DNA of 64,000 nucleotides, taken from positions 1 through 64,000 of the forward strand of contig JAFPWT010000013.1 of NCBI GenBank assembly GCA_017394865.1, read 5' to 3'. Below the pieces are notes generated by a model. It ran no database searches. It saw only the letters and a program-made list of their open reading frames with translations, and was not told where the DNA came from. Positions 34,285 to 51,197 of this stretch are shown here, piece by piece. The stretch's first letter is position 1, and every line of letters starts with the position of its first letter. The DNA is from Bacteroidales bacterium. GTDB lineage: Bacteria; Bacteroidota; Bacteroidia; Bacteroidales; F082. The translations under genes and the position numbers were made by a program.

Positions 34285-36291
34285 ATGAACGATACAGAAA
34301 AAAGAAACTGGATTTCAAGATTATTTGGTGGCTTTTTCAACAAAAGGGTGCTGCCTTATTGGTGCATCCTTTTGCTTGATACGCTGATTGTTTTCTTCTC
34401 ATGCATCTTTTGCTATTGGGTAGAGAAACGATCAGTGGTGTTGCTTACCCTTCTTGACAATGTGCTTGTCACCTCGGCATTCTATGCCTTGCTGAGTTGG
34501 ATCGGTGCTAGAATTTTCAGAACCTATTCCGGAGTAGTGCGTTACTCCAGTTTAGTTGACCTGATGAAGGTTGCTTTTGCCAATCTGGTGACAATGGTAT
34601 TAGCGCTGATTAGCTATTATTTGCTAAATTGGCAAGACGTCAAGATGCTTAGCGCTCTATCGCCCATTGCTATCGTGGCCTCGTTTGTGATCGCTACCAT
34701 GCTGATGTGGGCCATGCGACTCTTGGTGAGAACGGTTTATGAACAAACGCAAGTCCAGTCGAAGAAGACCAGAGTGCTTATTTACGGAGCTTTGACAGGT
34801 GGTGTGGGTATCGCTAAAAACATCCGTAGCCAGAAACCCGCCCAGTATGAATTGTGTGGCTTTATCTCGCACGAGCATCGTATCCGTAAAATGAGCCTCA
34901 TGGGGGTGGATATCTTCAATCCCGATGATGACATTGCCGCTATTGTCAAGAGACTCCGTATTGAAGCTGTGTTGGTGAGCCCCCTCCGTGTGGATGACTT
35001 CCGTAATAACCAGAAAATACAGGATATCTTGATCGGTGCCGGTTGCAAGATTTTGATGGCACAATTGGAAAAAGAGGCTAGTGTGAAGAATGGCGAACTG
35101 GAAGAGGGTGCCGAGAAGGATATGCAGCTGAAAGAGGTGAGTGTGGAAGACCTGCTGCCTCGTCAGCAAATCAAGGTAGACCTGAAGTCGGTGGAAGACC
35201 AACTGAAGGGGAAACGCGTACTGATCACAGGTTCAGCCGGTTCCATCGGTGCTGAGATCGTGCGTCAGGTGGCTGCTTTCCATCCTGCCAAGATGATGCT
35301 CATCGACCAGGCTGAGACTCCGCAACACGATATCCGCCTGATGATGGCCAACGAATTTCCCGATGTGCCCTGCGAGGTCGTGGTGACCAGTATCAGCCGT
35401 CGTACCCGCATGGAAAGCGTGTTCCGCACCTTCCAACCTGAATATGTGTTCCACGCTGCAGCATACAAGCATGTGCCGATGATGGAGGACAACCCCAGCG
35501 AAGCTGTGATGAACAACATCTATGGTACCAAGGTGATCGCCGATATGGCTGTGCAATTTGGAGCCAAGAAGTTCGTGATGATCTCCACCGACAAGGCGGT
35601 AAATCCCACCAACGTGATGGGCTGCTCGAAACGTATCTGTGAGATCTATGTGCAGAGCCTCGACCGCAAGTTGAAGCTGGAAGCTCTTGAAAAACAGCAC
35701 CAGACAGGCGAAAAAGTGGAATACACCCAGTTCGTCACCACGCGATTCGGCAACGTGCTTGGATCCAATGGCTCGGTGATACCGCTGTTTAGGGAACAGA
35801 TCAAAAAAGGCGGTCCCGTCACTGTTACCGACGAGCGCATCGTCCGTTTCTTCATGCTTATTCCCGAGGCTTGCAAACTGGTGCTCGAAGCTGGTACCAA
35901 AGGCAACGGCGGCGAGATCTTCGTATTCGATATGGGAGAGCCTGTGAAGATCGCCGACCTGGCCAAGCGTATGATTGCCCTTTCGCATGCTCAAAACGTT
36001 GAAATCAAATACACAGGCCTCCGCGAAGGCGAGAAACTCTACGAAGAGGTGCTCAACGAGTTGGAAGGCACCAAGCCTACCTTCCACGAGAAAATCCGTA
36101 TCGCCCAGGTGCGTGAATACGATTACGACGATGTGAGTCGTGAGATTGACGACTTGGTGGAAATTTGTAAACTGTTCGACAACATGAACACCGTGCGCAA
36201 GATGAAACAGATTGTGCCGGAATATAAGAGTAACAACTCGGTTTACGAAGTTTTGGATGCCGAAATAGGGGGGGGGGGGCTGTTTAAGTAA
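34285..36291 (+). CDS. Membrane-bound nucleotide-sugar 4,6-dehydratase (CapD/PglF/WbpM family)
   Basis: A 668-residue protein: four membrane helices in 25-145, a CoA-binding-like Rossmann region about 160-265, and an extended SDR domain about 305-600 with VLITGSAGSIGAEIVRQ near residue 311 and the YKHVPMMEDNP motif. This is the PglF/WbpM architecture that makes 4-keto-6-deoxy UDP-HexNAc for capsule or O-antigen. The catalytic Tyr is replaced by Met in this subfamily, as expected. It is followed by an initiating sugar transferase. Odd: the last codons contain twelve G in a row (36268-36279), a slippage-prone tract. Confidence 0.92.
   Translation: MNDTEKRNWISRLFGGFFNKRVLPYWCILLLDTLIVFFSCIFCYWVEKRSVVLLTLLDNVLVTSAFYALLSWIGARIFRTYSGVVRYSSLVDLMKVAFANLVTMVLALISYYLLNWQDVKMLSALSPIAIVASFVIATMLMWAMRLLVRTVYEQTQVQSKKTRVLIYGALTGGVGIAKNIRSQKPAQYELCGFISHEHRIRKMSLMGVDIFNPDDDIAAIVKRLRIEAVLVSPLRVDDFRNNQKIQDILIGAGCKILMAQLEKEASVKNGELEEGAEKDMQLKEVSVEDLLPRQQIKVDLKSVEDQLKGKRVLITGSAGSIGAEIVRQVAAFHPAKMMLIDQAETPQHDIRLMMANEFPDVPCEVVVTSISRRTRMESVFRTFQPEYVFHAAAYKHVPMMEDNPSEAVMNNIYGTKVIADMAVQFGAKKFVMISTDKAVNPTNVMGCSKRICEIYVQSLDRKLKLEALEKQHQTGEKVEYTQFVTTRFGNVLGSNGSVIPLFREQIKKGGPVTVTDERIVRFFMLIPEACKLVLEAGTKGNGGEIFVFDMGEPVKIADLAKRMIALSHAQNVEIKYTGLREGEKLYEEVLNELEGTKPTFHEKIRIAQVREYDYDDVSREIDDLVEICKLFDNMNTVRKMKQIVPEYKSNNSVYEVLDAEIGGGGLFK
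36268..36279 (+). repeat. Poly-G tract of 12 at the 3' end of the dehydratase gene
   Basis: Twelve consecutive G encode Gly-Gly-Gly-Gly just before the C-terminal LFK. Gain or loss of one G would replace the last residues and move the stop by at most a few codons. Confidence 0.9.
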
Positions 36292-36317
36292 TTGATTTTC
36301 ATATATTTTACGCTTAA

Positions 36318-36941
36318 ATGAAGCTCTTGAAGTTTGTTTTTGACCGTACCGTAGCTTTTATGGGTCTGCTGGTGCTGGCACTTCCCATGGCAGTTATCGC
36401 CGTATTGGTAAAGGTAAGCATGCCTGGCGGACCGGTGCTCTATCGTCAGACTAGAGTAGGAAAGGATGGGAAACTCTTCAAGATTCATAAGTTCCGCACC
36501 ATGACCAATGATGAGGAACTCTCCAATATCGCCTATCCTAATAGGGCGAGGGTAACTCCTTTTGGTGCCAAGCTCCGCCGCCATAAGATCGACGAGCTAC
36601 CTGAGCTGTGGGATGTTCTCATCGGGAAGATGAGCTTTGTGGGTCCGCGTCCTGATGTACCGGGTTATGCCGATAAGCTACAGGGCGACGATCGTGTGGT
36701 GCTGAAGATGCGCCCAGGGATTACGGGACCCGCCACATTGAAATACCGCGATGAGGAGCACCTCATCGAAGCCTATGTGAAACAAGCCAAAGCTGACGGC
36801 GATGCGCGATCCGAGGACGAGATTGCCAGGTGGTACAATGACGAGGTGATCTATCCCGACAAAGTGCGTATCAATGTCGACTATTACCATAAATATTCTT
36901 TTTTCAACGATATCAAAATCATTTTTCAGACGCTGACATAG
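36318..36941 (+). CDS. Polyprenyl-phosphate sugar-1-phosphate transferase
   Basis: A 207-residue enzyme of the bacterial sugar transferase family (PglC/WcaJ C-terminal type). One N-terminal membrane-entering helix (8-32) is followed by the catalytic core: LFKIHKFRTM, KLRRHKIDELPELWDVL and MSFVGPRPDVPGY. It starts a polysaccharide or glycan by loading the first sugar onto undecaprenyl phosphate, using the product of the upstream dehydratase pathway. 26-nt gap from the dehydratase; 1-nt gap to fakA. Confidence 0.93.
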   Translation: MKLLKFVFDRTVAFMGLLVLALPMAVIAVLVKVSMPGGPVLYRQTRVGKDGKLFKIHKFRTMTNDEELSNIAYPNRARVTPFGAKLRRHKIDELPELWDVLIGKMSFVGPRPDVPGYADKLQGDDRVVLKMRPGITGPATLKYRDEEHLIEAYVKQAKADGDARSEDEIARWYNDEVIYPDKVRINVDYYHKYSFFNDIKIIFQTLT

Positions 36942-36942
36942 T

Positions 36943-38622
36943 ATGGGACATTTGATTGAAATAGACAGTCTGACCTTCTCCGCCATGCTCCGACAAGGGA
37001 CTGTGGCCTTAGGAAAGGAGAAGGGTGTAATCAACGATTTGAATGTTTTTCCTATCCCCGACGGGGATACAGGTGACAATATGTATATGACCATGAAGGC
37101 CGGAGTGAGCGCAGCTAGCGAGGCCAACCCCATGGGCACTGCATATCTCCCGGTGGGAGATACGCTAGGTGCCCATGGGGTTGCCTCGCTAGCATCCGCA
37201 GCGTCATCTGGCATGCTACTGGGTGCCCGTGGCAACTCGGGAGTTATCTTGAGCCGTATCTTCGCAGGCCTTGCTAAAGGGTTGAAAGACGTGGCTGTGG
37301 CCGACACCAAAACGTTTGACCATGCCATGCACGCTGCCGTCGACGAAGCCTACAAAGCCGTTCCTGTCCCAGTGGAAGGCACCATGATCACGGTGATGCG
37401 CGAAGGCGTAGCTGGGGCCGACGCTTCTGGTGACATGAACCACTATTTTGAGACCTTGCTTGAAGCCATGCAGACCTCGCTTGACCATACTCCAGAGCTT
37501 CTTCAGGTGCTGAAGGATGCCGGTGTGGTCGACAGCGGCGGGGCAGGGGTGCTCTGTGTTTTCCGTGGGATGAACGACGCCCTCTGTGGTCGTATTACCG
37601 ATGAAGAACTGTTGCCATCCAAGGTAGAAACACCTACTGTGGACCTCAATAAATTTAACGAGAACAGTACGCTTGAATTTGGCTATTGCACAGAGTTCCT
37701 GCTACGGCTGTTGCGCGCTAAGGTGGACTTGGAAACCTTCGACGAACAGGTGATCATCGATTACCTGAATCGCGTTGGTGAGTCGGTGGTGGCCTTCCGT
37801 GAAGGCACTATCGTGAAAGTGCACGTGCATACCTATACACCTGGAGTCATCCTGAATGAAATGCAGAAATACGGCGAGTTCCTGACCATCAAAATTGAAA
37901 ACATGGCGCTTCAACATCATCAGGAAACTAACCAAAACAATGCTTCATTCAAAAAGCCCAAGCAGAAATATGGAGTTGTTACCGTTGCTTCGGGACAAGG
38001 CCTGATGGATGCTTTCCGTGAGATTGGTGCCGACGAGGTGATTGCCGGCGGACAAACCATGAATCCCTCTACACAGGATTTTATAGAAGCCTTCAGACGC
38101 ATTAATGCACAGCATATTCTAGTATTCCCTAATAACTCCAACATTAAGATGGCTGCCGAGCAGGCCGCTGGACTCTATACTGAGTCCGATGTGCGTGTGA
38201 TGCCCTCTGCTTCGATAGGCGAAGGCTATTTTGGCATTGGCTCCATTGATCGCGATTGCGCTAATGTGGAAGAGGTGATCGAGAGTGTCACCGAGGCCAT
38301 GCAAACGACAGTTTCGGGTATGGTCTCCACCGCCATCCGTGATGCGGAAGGGGAGGTGAGTGTGCATACGGGCGACTTTGTGGGCTACAGTGGCAAGCAG
38401 ATCCTCAGCGACAGCCCCTTGCGCAAGGAGGCAGCCATGGAACTCTTACGGAGACTGAACATCGGATCACGTGACGTGATGATCGTCTTTTATGGCAACG
38501 ATGTACCTGCCGAAGAAGCGGATGCTTTAATTACCGAATTGCAGAATAATTATAAAAACATTGAAATAATAAATATTTGCGGCTTACAGCCGGTTTATGA
38601 CTATATTTTTGCCTTATGTTAG
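36943..38622 (+). CDS. fakA: DAK2-domain fatty acid kinase, large subunit
   Basis: A 559-residue protein: DAK2 kinase domain (about 10-200) with VFPIPDGDTGDNMYMTM (metal-binding aspartates) and MLLGARGNSGVILS, then the long FakA-type C-terminal region (about 235-559) with VFPNNSNIKMAAEQAA. It phosphorylates fatty acids presented by FakB. The next gene, a DegV/FakB protein, overlaps it by 7 nt, which confirms the assignment. Odd: residues about 58-84 (ASEANPMGTAYLP...GVASLA) are encoded by an 80-bp palindromic element at 37114-37193, in a linker position where relatives vary. Confidence 0.9.
   Translation: MGHLIEIDSLTFSAMLRQGTVALGKEKGVINDLNVFPIPDGDTGDNMYMTMKAGVSAASEANPMGTAYLPVGDTLGAHGVASLASAASSGMLLGARGNSGVILSRIFAGLAKGLKDVAVADTKTFDHAMHAAVDEAYKAVPVPVEGTMITVMREGVAGADASGDMNHYFETLLEAMQTSLDHTPELLQVLKDAGVVDSGGAGVLCVFRGMNDALCGRITDEELLPSKVETPTVDLNKFNENSTLEFGYCTEFLLRLLRAKVDLETFDEQVIIDYLNRVGESVVAFREGTIVKVHVHTYTPGVILNEMQKYGEFLTIKIENMALQHHQETNQNNASFKKPKQKYGVVTVASGQGLMDAFREIGADEVIAGGQTMNPSTQDFIEAFRRINAQHILVFPNNSNIKMAAEQAAGLYTESDVRVMPSASIGEGYFGIGSIDRDCANVEEVIESVTEAMQTTVSGMVSTAIRDAEGEVSVHTGDFVGYSGKQILSDSPLRKEAAMELLRRLNIGSRDVMIVFYGNDVPAEEADALITELQNNYKNIEIINICGLQPVYDYIFALC
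37114..37193. repeat. Palindromic element, copy A (inside fakA)
   Basis: Left arm 37114-37139 and right arm 37169-37193 are reverse complements over 25 bp with a single inserted C on the left. The apex 37140-37168 reads TGCATATCTCC, CGGTG, GGAGATACGCTAG and contains an 8-bp inner stem. The apex is shared with copy B at 39493-39569 except for its loop, whereas the arms differ. It is translated in frame. Confidence 0.85.
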
Positions 38623-39485
38623 TATTTTTCAGTGACACCGATTGCGACATCACTCCCAAGGAGTGTGCCGAGTATGGCATCAAAATGATTAGCATGCCGT
38701 ACACCGTGGGTGATAAAGTGATTTACCCTTACATTGATTTTCAGGAATTCGACTCGCACAGCTTCTATGACATGCTGCGTGCTGGCACCATGCCCACCAC
38801 CAGCGCCATGAGTGAGGAAGCCTACATCCAATACTTTGAGCCCGAGTTTCAGGCTGGTAACGATATTCTCTATGTGCATTTTTCCTCAGGGACCTCGAAT
38901 ACTTTCGCCATTATGAGTCAGGCCGTGGCCAAGCTGAAGGAGAAGTATCCCGAGAGGATGTTCTATGAAGTTGATACCTTGGGCATCACAGCGCTTTCCT
39001 ATAATGTGGTGCTCGAATGCGCCGAGATGTATAAAGCTGGTAAGACCGCTGAAGAGATCGTGGAATGGGCCAAGGTGGAAGTGCCGAAGTTCCCAATGTA
39101 TTTCTTCGCTGACGACTTGAGGTTCTTCCGCCGCAGCGGTCGTGTGAGCGGATTGGCGGCCACGATGGGCGGCCTCATCGGCATCCGTCCCATTATCTAC
39201 TTGAACGACGAGGGTAAGATGGTCTCCATCGGCAAGGAGAAAGGCCGTAGCAAGGCTATCGCCCGACTGGTGCAGTATGTGGAGGAACTCGGCGAGGACG
39301 TGAAAGCCCACCGTGTGGTGATCGGTCATAGCGATTGTCCAGAGATCGCTGCCGAAGCCGAAACCTTGTTGAAAGAGAAATTCGGCGCTGATCTCAATGT
39401 GATTACAGTGGTGGTGAATCCTACGATCGGTAGCCACTGCGGTCCCAACGGCGTCGGTATCTGCTTCCACGCCAAACATAGGTAG
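38616..39485 (+). CDS. fakB: DegV-family fatty-acid-binding protein
   Basis: A 289-residue cytosolic protein of the DegV/FakB family that holds a fatty acid during phosphorylation by FakA. SSGTSNTF at about 90-97 binds the carboxylate, and RRSGRVSG and SHCGPNGVGICF near the C-terminus are typical. Overlaps fakA by 7 nt and lies upstream of GNAT-like and ACP genes, so acyl phosphate formed here can enter phospholipid synthesis through PlsX. The stop is followed 7 nt later by palindromic element copy B. Confidence 0.93.
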   Translation: MLVFFSDTDCDITPKECAEYGIKMISMPYTVGDKVIYPYIDFQEFDSHSFYDMLRAGTMPTTSAMSEEAYIQYFEPEFQAGNDILYVHFSSGTSNTFAIMSQAVAKLKEKYPERMFYEVDTLGITALSYNVVLECAEMYKAGKTAEEIVEWAKVEVPKFPMYFFADDLRFFRRSGRVSGLAATMGGLIGIRPIIYLNDEGKMVSIGKEKGRSKAIARLVQYVEELGEDVKAHRVVIGHSDCPEIAAEAETLLKEKFGADLNVITVVVNPTIGSHCGPNGVGICFHAKHR

Positions 39486-39492
39486 AACGGGA

Positions 39493-39569
39493 TCGAGCCA
39501 GTGTACCCCCTGAGGCGCTGCATATCTCCTTCGGAGATACGCTAGGCGCCTCAGGGGGTACACTGGCTC
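39493..39569. repeat. Palindromic element, copy B (between fakB and the GNAT-like gene)
   Basis: Left arm 39493-39517 and right arm 39545-39569 are perfect 25-bp reverse complements. The apex 39518-39544 reads TGCATATCTCC, TTC, GGAGATACGCTAG, matching copy A except in the loop. It begins 7 nt after the fakB stop and could act as a transcript-stabilising hairpin; there is no T-run, so it is not a standard terminator. Confidence 0.9.
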
Positions 39570-39588
39570 GTAACAAATATAAGCGACT

Positions 39589-40710
39589 ATGATTTTAATA
39601 GAACAAGTCCAAACTAAAAAACAGCAGAGGGATTTCCTGAGATTTCCTCTGAAACTCTATAAGGGGAATCCTTACTTTTCTCCTCCATTGTATATGGATG
39701 AGAAAAAGATTTTCCATAAGAACTTCGTTTATAACGACTGCTGCGACGCTATCTACTTCAACGCTTATAAAGACGGTGTGATGGCAGGACGTATCTCGGG
39801 TATTATCCAGCGTGCGGCCAACGAGAAAAACAACAAGAAGCAGGTGCGTTTCACTCGTTTCGATGTTATCGATGACGAGGAGGTGGCCAAAAAGTTGTTC
39901 GAGGCTGTGGAACACTGGGCTGTCGAGAAAGGCATGGACGAGGTGATAGGGCCTTTGAGCTTCTCCGATCTTGAAAGGGAAGGCTTGCTGATTGGTGGTT
40001 TCGACCAGGCGGCCACTTTCGAGGAAAACTATAACCACCCCTATTACCAGACCTTCATAGAGAATATGGGGTATAAGAAGGAGGTGGACTGGACGGGGAG
40101 TCATTTAAGAGTGCCTAAAGACTATGACGGTGAAGTGGACCAGCTGGCTGCCTATGTGATGAAACGTTACCATCTGCATCTGGGCACGGCGCGCAATACC
40201 AACGAATTCCTCAAGAAATACGCTGACGATATCTTCGAGCTCATCGACAAGTCGTATGATCTGCTTTACGGTACTGTGCCTTTTACCGAGGGGATGAAGA
40301 AGATGATGATCGACAACTTTAAGTTGGTGGTTGACATGAAGAACGTGGCGGTGGTTCTTGATGAAAACAACAAGATGGTTTGCTTTGGACTGGCATTCCC
40401 TGCCATTGCCGATGCTGTACGTCCTTCAGGCGGACGCCTCACTCCGATGACGTTGATCCGTCTGCTGAAAGCCCTGAAGAAGCCCTCGGTGATCGACCTC
40501 TGTCTCATTGGCGTTGATCCCGAATGGCTTAACCGTGGCGTGAGCATCATCGTCTCCTCAGGCTTGATGAAAATGCTCCAACGTCCCGAAGTACTTTATG
40601 CGGACACCAACCTCAACCTTGAGGAAAACTATGCGATCCAGAACCAGTGGAAACGCTTCGATGAGAAAAAGGTTAAATTGTATAGATGTTACGGTAAAAA
40701 GATAAAATGA
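39589..40710 (+). CDS. GNAT-fold protein (YghO-like)
   Basis: A 373-residue cytosolic protein. The N-terminal part (LKLYKGNPYFSPPLYMDEKK) and EVIGPLSFSDLEREGLLIGGF match large GNAT-like proteins of the YghO type found in many Bacteroidetes; the C-terminal half has a further acetyltransferase-like fold (about 190-370). The substrate is unknown. Position between fakB and the ACP gene (overlap of 4 nt with the latter) suggests use of acyl-ACP or acyl-CoA in lipid metabolism. Confidence 0.75.
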   Translation: MILIEQVQTKKQQRDFLRFPLKLYKGNPYFSPPLYMDEKKIFHKNFVYNDCCDAIYFNAYKDGVMAGRISGIIQRAANEKNNKKQVRFTRFDVIDDEEVAKKLFEAVEHWAVEKGMDEVIGPLSFSDLEREGLLIGGFDQAATFEENYNHPYYQTFIENMGYKKEVDWTGSHLRVPKDYDGEVDQLAAYVMKRYHLHLGTARNTNEFLKKYADDIFELIDKSYDLLYGTVPFTEGMKKMMIDNFKLVVDMKNVAVVLDENNKMVCFGLAFPAIADAVRPSGGRLTPMTLIRLLKALKKPSVIDLCLIGVDPEWLNRGVSIIVSSGLMKMLQRPEVLYADTNLNLEENYAIQNQWKRFDEKKVKLYRCYGKKIK

Positions 40711-40937
40711 TGTTTGAACAAGTAAAAGAAATATTAGCCCGTCAATTGCGGGTTTCGCCTGATAAAGTTACTATGGACGCCCAAATCAAACGCGATCTGG
40801 GTGCTGACTCTGTCGACATTCTCCAATTGCTCATGCGTCTTGAAGACGATTACGGCATTGTCATTCCCGATCAGGAGCTTGCCAAATTCGAGACCGTCGG
40901 CGATGTGGTCAATTTCCTTGACGGCTTGAAGGCTTAA
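40707..40937 (+). CDS. Acyl carrier protein
   Basis: A 76-residue acidic four-helix protein with the phosphopantetheine attachment site LGADSVDILQL (Ser35). Starts inside the stop of the preceding gene (ATGATG), showing coupling. A second, housekeeping ACP next to fabF is likely elsewhere, so this may be a specialised carrier for the local pathway. Its stop shares a TTAA with the stop of convergent plsX. Confidence 0.93.
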   Translation: MMFEQVKEILARQLRVSPDKVTMDAQIKRDLGADSVDILQLLMRLEDDYGIVIPDQELAKFETVGDVVNFLDGLKA

Positions 40938-41953
40938 TACTCGTAGTGGTCGTATCTCATGATGATCTCTTCCATCTTGGAGGAGAGTGAATTTACTTCC
41001 ATCTTGTAAGCCTGTTCGATGCATTTCTCCACGGCGACAGCTTTGCTGGAGCCGTGGCCTTTGACTACCGTCTTCGAAGTGCCTAGGAGGACGCTGCCGC
41101 CATAGTTCTGGTAGTTCATGAATTCCTTTTCCTCCTTGAACATCCGTTTCATCAGCAAGGCTCCCAGTTTGTAGATGCCGCGTGAATAGATGTCTTTCTT
41201 GAGTTTCTTCAGCAGTTCGATGGCGGTTCCTTCAGTCGTTTTCACGAGTACGTTGCCCGAGAAGCCATCGCACACGACAACATCGTAGTTACCCGAGAGC
41301 AGATCGCGGCTTTCCATGTTGCCCACGAAATTCACTTCTGGGGTCTCCGTCAACAGTTGATAGGCCTTTTGACGGATCTCATCGCCTTTCTCTGCTTCTT
41401 TACCCACATTAAGCAATGCCACTCGGGGTTTGATGATGCCGTACACCTGTTCCATATAGAGGCAGGCCATGATGGCGAATTGGCGGAGATGGTCGGGGGT
41501 GACCTCCACGTTGGCGCCGCTGTCGCAGATGCCCACGATACCGCCGTTCATGGTGGGTAGGATGGGGCAGAAGGCGGGACGGATCACGCCTTTCACACGA
41601 CCGATGCGGGTGAGTGCTGCGGCTACTAAAGCGCCTGTGGACCCTGTGCTGACCAAAGCGTTGATATCGTCGCGGTCGCGCAGCATCCGCACCGCCTTGA
41701 TCATAGAGCTTTCTTTTTTCAGGCGGATCACGTCGATGGGGCGTTCATCGCAGCCGACGACCTCTGGAGCATGTACGATCTCCACCCTTTCGGCATCGTA
41801 GGCTTTGCCAGAAAGATAGTTGTGGATGGTGGGCTCGTCGCCAGTGAGGATCAGATAAAGGTCAGGATTCTTGGCAAGTGCTGTCAGAGCACCGTCAATA
41901 TTGGCTTGGGGACTATGGTCCCCGCCGAAACAATCAATAATTATTTTAATCAT
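40934..41953 (-). CDS. plsX: Phosphate acyltransferase
   Basis: A 339-residue enzyme that turns acyl-ACP into acyl phosphate for phospholipid synthesis. The start MIKIIIDCFGGDHSP (41953) is the normal PlsX N-terminus (MDAMGGDxAP type, with Cys-Phe here); ALVSTGSTGALVAAAL and the late CDGFSGNVLVKTTEGTA are intact. It is convergent with the ACP gene and lies 1 nt behind the cyclic glucan synthase gene on the same strand. In most Bacteroidetes plsX follows rpmF; that is not so here. Confidence 0.93.
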   Translation of the reverse strand: MIKIIIDCFGGDHSPQANIDGALTALAKNPDLYLILTGDEPTIHNYLSGKAYDAERVEIVHAPEVVGCDERPIDVIRLKKESSMIKAVRMLRDRDDINALVSTGSTGALVAAALTRIGRVKGVIRPAFCPILPTMNGGIVGICDSGANVEVTPDHLRQFAIMACLYMEQVYGIIKPRVALLNVGKEAEKGDEIRQKAYQLLTETPEVNFVGNMESRDLLSGNYDVVVCDGFSGNVLVKTTEGTAIELLKKLKKDIYSRGIYKLGALLMKRMFKEEKEFMNYQNYGGSVLLGTSKTVVKGHGSSKAVAVEKCIEQAYKMEVNSLSSKMEEIIMRYDHYEY

Positions 41954-51095: not shown

Positions 51096-51197
51096 CGTCA
51101 TTGCGAGGAGCGAAGCGACGAAGCAATCCAACCAGAGTGGGCTTTGTTTGTGTCAGGTTGGATTGCCGCGCTCGCCCCTAACTCGCTCGCAATGACG
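51096..51197. repeat. Dispersed palindromic repeat with CGTCATTGCGAG ends
   Basis: Outer arms CGTCATTGCGAG (51096-51107) and CTCGCAATGACG (51186-51197) and inner arms GCAATCCAACC (51123-51133) and GGTTGGATTGC (51156-51166) form a long imperfect hairpin of about 102 bp. The AGCGAAGCGACGAAGCAATCC part is a sequence that I know as a dispersed repeat in unrelated bacteria. No ORF inside. It separates the lipoprotein gene from the deaminase gene. Confidence 0.85.

Follow-up and report, generated by a model that had tools for sequence, protein, structure and literature searches.

A short, probably mobile palindrome dispersed at gene ends and within protein linkers in part of a gut Bacteroidales genus

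Two hairpins encoded in a 64,000 bp stretch of a Bacteroidales genome (hereafter the window) belong to a repeat family that is probably a non-autonomous, REP/RPE-like mobile palindrome of about 77 bp that has dispersed across a portion of a single genus of gut Bacteroidales. A search of 99 genomes of the genus found at least 87 sites, distributed over 12 genomes; the window's own genome (G000) has 15. The dispersed copies, the turnover of the protein linkers that hold some of them and the bias toward gene 3' ends fit a palindrome moved in trans.

Each of the two copies in the window, A and B, corresponds to a single long, near-perfect hairpin in which arms of 25–26 nt flank an apex, which forms a smaller hairpin of its own, interrupted by an A.C mismatch and a TA bulge (Table 1). 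The arms pair at 25 of 25 positions in B and form 25 pairs, plus one bulged C, in A. Both hairpins had been described in an earlier note made from the sequence alone, and both were found where it placed them, with plus-strand folding z-scores (−10.4 for A, −13.1 for B) far below those of shuffled sequences; for neither copy did any of 200 shuffles reach the same stability. Two matches to the apex pattern lie in the window, versus none in 100 shuffles.

The search for further copies of the apex and the covariance model, both proposed in that note, were carried out and gave the family size reported above. The apex pattern has nine copies in G000, six of which were used to build a covariance model (R1) that matched 8 of 60 genus genomes (E ≤ 0.01); a broader model (R2), built from 29 copies, matched 11 of 99 (E ≤ 1e-4). 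The site counts per genome are lower bounds, as at most 47 of up to 570 candidates per genome were scored with R2: at least 25 in G081, 15 in G000, 12 in G112, 11 in G052, 10 in G023, 6 in G013 and 3 in G066, and at least one each in G008, G053, G085, G107 and G017. The G017 site, which matches R1 only and has off-consensus arms, is tentatively included, and two identical sites of G081 near contig ends (10a and 13) may be one and the same. Most elements are 75–80 bp long, three short-apex copies being 68 bp, and nine of the ten TGCATATCTCC sites in G000 are whole elements, in genomes that are incomplete. A pattern search of a contig collection returned 20 stretches, 13 of them in Bacteroidales/Bacteroidia metagenome-assembled genomes, all 13 matching R1; the seven from other taxa showed no R1 match and were taken as chance. 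One apex pattern was found in none of 16 other genera, represented by one genome each, copy A matched no plasmid, the C1_145 element matched neither phages nor plasmids, and in viral contigs one pattern had a single hit, which did not match the model, and a second pattern had none.

Table 1. Coordinates of the two copies in the window and of the surrounding genes.
Feature	Position	Strand	Remarks
Copy A, whole element	37114..37193	+	In frame in fakA; R1 72.3 bits, A outside the training set of the model
Copy A, left arm	37114..37139	+	26 nt, one bulged C
Copy A, apex	37140..37168	+	29 nt; inner hairpin, A.C mismatch, TA bulge
Copy A, right arm	37169..37193	+	25 nt
Copy B, whole element	39494..39570	+	Gap between degV and the next ORF; R1 100 bits, B within the training set of the model
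Copy B, left arm	39494..39518	+	25 nt; 25/25 complementary
Copy B, apex	39519..39545	+	27 nt
Copy B, right arm	39546..39570	+	25 nt
fakA, holds copy A	36943..38622	+	Dak2, FakA middle and C-terminal domains (Pfam)
degV-family gene	38616..39485	+	Copy B starts 8 nt 3' of it
Open reading frame without Pfam hit	39589..40710	+	Starts 18 nt 3' of copy B

From copies A and B the earlier note had described a constant apex combined with arms that differ between copies apart from faint traces, and over the 87 copies this design was not supported as worded. The apex is constant within a subfamily only, the inner stem occurs as GCAAC/GTTGC, GCGAC/GTCGC and AGAAAC/GTTTCT, and the arms follow a shared but diverged consensus (approximately GCGARGTACCCC...GGCRC, with the complement on the other side). 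In their 20 inner bases, the left arms of A and B are 55% identical. Changes on both sides of the arms between copies, which the note had offered as one of two alternatives, were supported: among 29 aligned copies, 22 of the 26 outer stem pairs had changed on both sides, and pairing was kept in 86.5% of the cells, whereas shuffles gave 70.9% and slid arms no more than 45.6%, with kinship among these copies only partly removed by these controls. The covariation score was 0.441 versus 0.170 in shuffles. With gaps allowed, the 20 inner arm bases of 86 copies (G017 excluded from the arm counts, as it is without the anchors) paired at 0.910 within copies and 0.756 between them.

Comparison of homologous sites (nine sets with 18 non-independent comparisons) revealed 247 unchanged pair cells, 29 changed on one side, 10 changed on both sides with pairing kept and one changed on both sides otherwise. 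Three of these sets are infirm, namely two rRNA-end copies of one genome, the pair G023_13 and G052_5, which probably stem from independent insertions, and the short-apex copies, put together with no check of their flanks. In the six firmer sets, 179 cells were unchanged, 23 changed on one side, five compensated, representing about three separate changes, and one changed on both sides otherwise. One-sided changes thus outnumber compensated ones by 23 to 5, so resident palindromes decay as well as compensate, and the majority of both-sided differences lie between copies at different sites.

An open frame of at least 150 codons spans 28 of the 87 sites. Twelve of these, in five genes of six genomes, were accepted as predicted in-frame insertions, as homologs and Pfam domains support a representative of each gene, and the remaining 16 looked antisense or spurious. 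The five genes are fakA (copy A, placed in frame there by the earlier note, as was found), tilS (C5_129k of G000), a gene for a U32 peptidase (C17 and G052_109), a GH106-like gene (C3_139k, G013_3 and G081_22 in one orientation, G023_13, G052_5 and G112_3 in the other) and a gene for a lamin-tail protein (G023_6a and G013_16). Six of the copies run with their gene and six against it.

The linkers of tilS, the GH106-like gene and the lamin-tail gene occur without the element in relatives, and the FakA linker is variable, as had been proposed. A search of 24 genomes found three clear FakA orthologs besides that of the window, all without the insert and 12–15 residues shorter at this point: the linker has 18 residues in G012 (75% identical) and G010 (71%) versus 33 in the window, and is 12 residues shorter in G026 (51%). 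The AlphaFold2 model of FakA (four sequences) had a mean pLDDT of 52, with residues 63–78 below 50 and lying between two helices, and this weak model indicates no more than a probable loop.

The GH106-like linker, aligned at 12 of 30 loci, holds the element in both orientations. In a gene tree of 29 proteins, where the label "none" stands for no model hit, copies occur on both sides of a 100/100 branch. The three plus copies are not monophyletic, nor are the three minus ones, and the orientation labels showed no extra clustering on this tree, 307 and 296 of 500 shuffles being as low. The position of G052 across the 100/100 branch suggests recurrent insertion, and the G023 copy may reflect an inversion at one site.

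In addition, the linkers of tilS, the GH106-like gene and the lamin-tail gene look like shared landing sites of several repeat families, since other species hold other palindromic repeats there. In tilS (20 of 22 chosen loci aligned), a GTCATTGCGAGG palindrome occupies the linker of G050 and G008 (L207, L208), G052 and G023 carry GCACCCC/GCATCCC hairpins, and the linkers of G003 and G102 code for VPEPVEG, which we take to be a repeat product; the linker is short in G112, G010, G066 and G085. Hairpins of GCACCCCTTCGGGGTGC and GCATCCCTACGGGATGC were seen in the G052 and G023 linkers (L210 and L212). A GTCATTGCGAGG palindrome is also present in the lamin-tail gene of G053 (L250; 15 of 30 fetched loci aligned), and the GH106-like loci of G098 and G114 contain the GTCATTGCGAGG motif. 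By resemblance, this repeat is probably a CGTC-type REP of a separate family, CGTC repeats being reported in Bacteroidetes (PMC3733652). The lamin-tail gene of G112 (L249) shows a CAATGGGAG...CTCCCATTG palindrome enclosing an apex-like remnant, possibly what decay or rearrangement has left of a copy of the element. In the window itself, positions 51097–51196 hold a facing GTCATTGCGAGG/GTCATTGCGAGC pair, probably also a CGTC-type REP repeat of the other family, although 7 of 100 shuffles also had two matches at the stringency used.

Copy-specific arms could also arise if the apex alone moved and the arms of each copy were grown by snap-back copying of the target flank, an origin that we regard as unlikely. 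Four copies (G023_6a, G013_16, G052_54 and G017) have arms that are off-consensus and yet match within the copy, the right arm of the G023 lamin-tail copy codes for TPYA, resembling LSVPF/LATPF in relatives, the 6-nt ends are perfectly complementary in 16 of the 87 copies, and MGT, encoded by the inner portion of the left arm in copy A, is also present in the insert-free FakA of G012, so that this part of the arm may be native. However, most arms follow the common consensus, those of A resemble C11_94k by eye, and no empty site seen (fakA, tilS, lamin-tail) has a whole arm as native DNA. The inverted duplication of flanking DNA offered in the earlier note was not shown for A or B and may apply chiefly to G023_6a, G013_16 and G017. 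Were it to act, and we hold this to be just as unlikely, the mobile unit would be a folded single-stranded apex whose 3' end snaps back and copies the adjacent strand, so that each insertion would start out perfectly palindromic, with the target supplying part of the arm sequence; such a template-writing palindrome would add in-frame residues at linkers that other repeat families use too.

Outside the accepted genes, crude ORF calls placed 46 of 75 sites between convergent genes and 18 between co-directional ones, none between divergent ones and 11 at contig edges, and in 22 of the 46 convergent sites both genes lie within 30 nt, a strong bias toward gene 3' ends. Four copies of G000 lie at contig ends, 3' of apparent 5S rRNA/rRNA operon ends where the contigs break, and Rfam confirmed the 5S rRNA at the one such locus tested. 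Of these four rRNA-end copies (L022 145–310, L024, L026 and L027), two are accompanied by a second element in the opposite orientation. Inverted neighboring pairs amount to three in all (C1, C11end and G112_57a/b), most copies being single or in same-orientation tandem. At L159 and L173 (copies G023_15 and G066_1), the flanks match as AAAAAGYCC and GGGCTTTTT, as if the element sat in a host terminator hairpin.

The 46 convergent placements among the 64 non-coding sites with both neighbors, the very stable RNA folds and the four copies behind rRNA operon ends are also what a bidirectional transcription terminator or a 3'-end mRNA stabilizer would give, that is, a selected structured RNA copied to gene ends; we consider this distinctly unlikely. 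Twelve copies are read within genes, few sites have the T-tract of an intrinsic terminator, a 3' T (or 5' A) run of at least five being found in 4 of 74 and of at least four in 12 of 74, and neither A nor B is among the terminator-like hairpins. Among 1655 cells of 86 copies, 44 A.C and 15 G.T were counted; the excess of A.C, equivalent to G.U on the minus strand, is a weak sign of a minus-strand RNA, but possible wobble cells, 59 in total, are few.

Entry of the element into the loop of a pre-existing palindrome (a terminator or another repeat), which would supply the outer arms, is very unlikely as a general account, even though 10 of 74 non-coding sites, some of them mutual orthologs, are hugged by a host inverted repeat of at least 6 bp (mean 2.4, maximum 7 in 200 re-pairings) and the left flank of the G000 tilS copy resembles the G050 GTCATTGCG repeat (score 18.0 versus a maximum of 16.5 in 2000 shuffles), given that 64 of the 74 sites are without such a repeat, the score on the right of the tilS copy is just 8.5, close to the mean of the left-flank shuffles, and no longer flanking palindrome was found around A or B. 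Over the 87 sites, orthologs kept, complementarity of the outside flanks averaged 9.75 versus 7.96 in 300 re-pairings (maximum 8.70), the clearest nested copies being G053, G023_11 and G112_28 with C9_72k.

For the preferred reading, a non-autonomous palindrome mobilized in trans, the copies would be moved by a recombinase or transposase recognizing a folded single strand by its mismatched apex and its GGCRC/GYGCC pairs. Sites behind stop codons, in some cases within the loop of a host hairpin, would tolerate insertions, as would flexible protein linkers while the frame stays open. Complementarity of the arms would then be kept by hairpin-templated correction or by selection for recognition, rather than by an RNA function.

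No mobilizing gene was found, Y1 being the sole transposase family searched. Y1_Tnp was searched in 24 relatives and 7 carrier genomes, with G081 (the richest), G112, G085 and G107 outside the search, and 28 loci were fetched from the matches listed, including all 10 of the 7 carrier genomes. None of the 28 held a copy within 1.5 kb on each side (R1 search), G052, with its 11 sites, gave no Y1_Tnp hit and G000 (73% complete) no Y1; RAYT mobilization was thus rejected for the loci searched. No consistent target-site duplication was seen either, TTCG being present on both sides by eye at G081_54a and b only, and near-identical strains provided no instance of movement. Against Rfam, positions 36000–41000 of the window gave matches below the gathering score only and five further loci gave 5S rRNA only, and no described Bacteroidales family of this design, of which the earlier note knew none, was found in Rfam or in the open-licence literature searched.

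Among known systems, the GTAG/CGTC REPs are characterized in PMC3733652 as short palindromes near 3' ends, mostly between convergent or unidirectional genes, with some intragenic or inside palindromes. The element shares with them the 3'-end bias, including the convergent and co-directional placement described there, some intragenic copies and some copies inside palindromes. However, it is longer than the REP unit of 20–40 bp and carries no tag above chance, GTAG being near the end in 11 and CGTC in 9 of 87 copies with about 10 expected. Its three opposite pairs recall REPIN/REP doublets, although inverted doublets are not the rule. Like MITEs, it is short, apparently non-autonomous and built as an inverted repeat, but no consistent target-site duplication was apparent by eye, and no parent transposon with the same ends was found in these incomplete genomes. 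As it shows neither a tag above chance nor a T-tract, nor a consistent duplication, nor RAYT linkage at the loci tested, we did not file it as a REP, a CGTC-REP/RPE or a terminator.

The likeness to Rickettsia palindromic elements (RPE), drawn in the earlier note, held up, five genes together having 12 of the 87 sites in frame. As in the RPE described in PMC10969869 and PMC3733652, palindromic repeats lie in frame in unrelated protein genes and also between genes. RPE are, as given there, about 150 bp long with a conserved peptide each, whereas this element is mostly 75–80 bp long with no single conserved peptide, belongs to another phylum and inserts in both orientations, the likeness being judged by description rather than by sequence. 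In conclusion, in-frame palindromic insertions such as those of RPE in Rickettsia also occur in gut Bacteroidales, where the element is another one, and in three proteins a given linker contains, depending on the species, either this element or a palindromic repeat of another kind, so that these linkers offer a comparative test of selfish palindromes as suppliers of protein linkers and of how arm complementarity is kept up.
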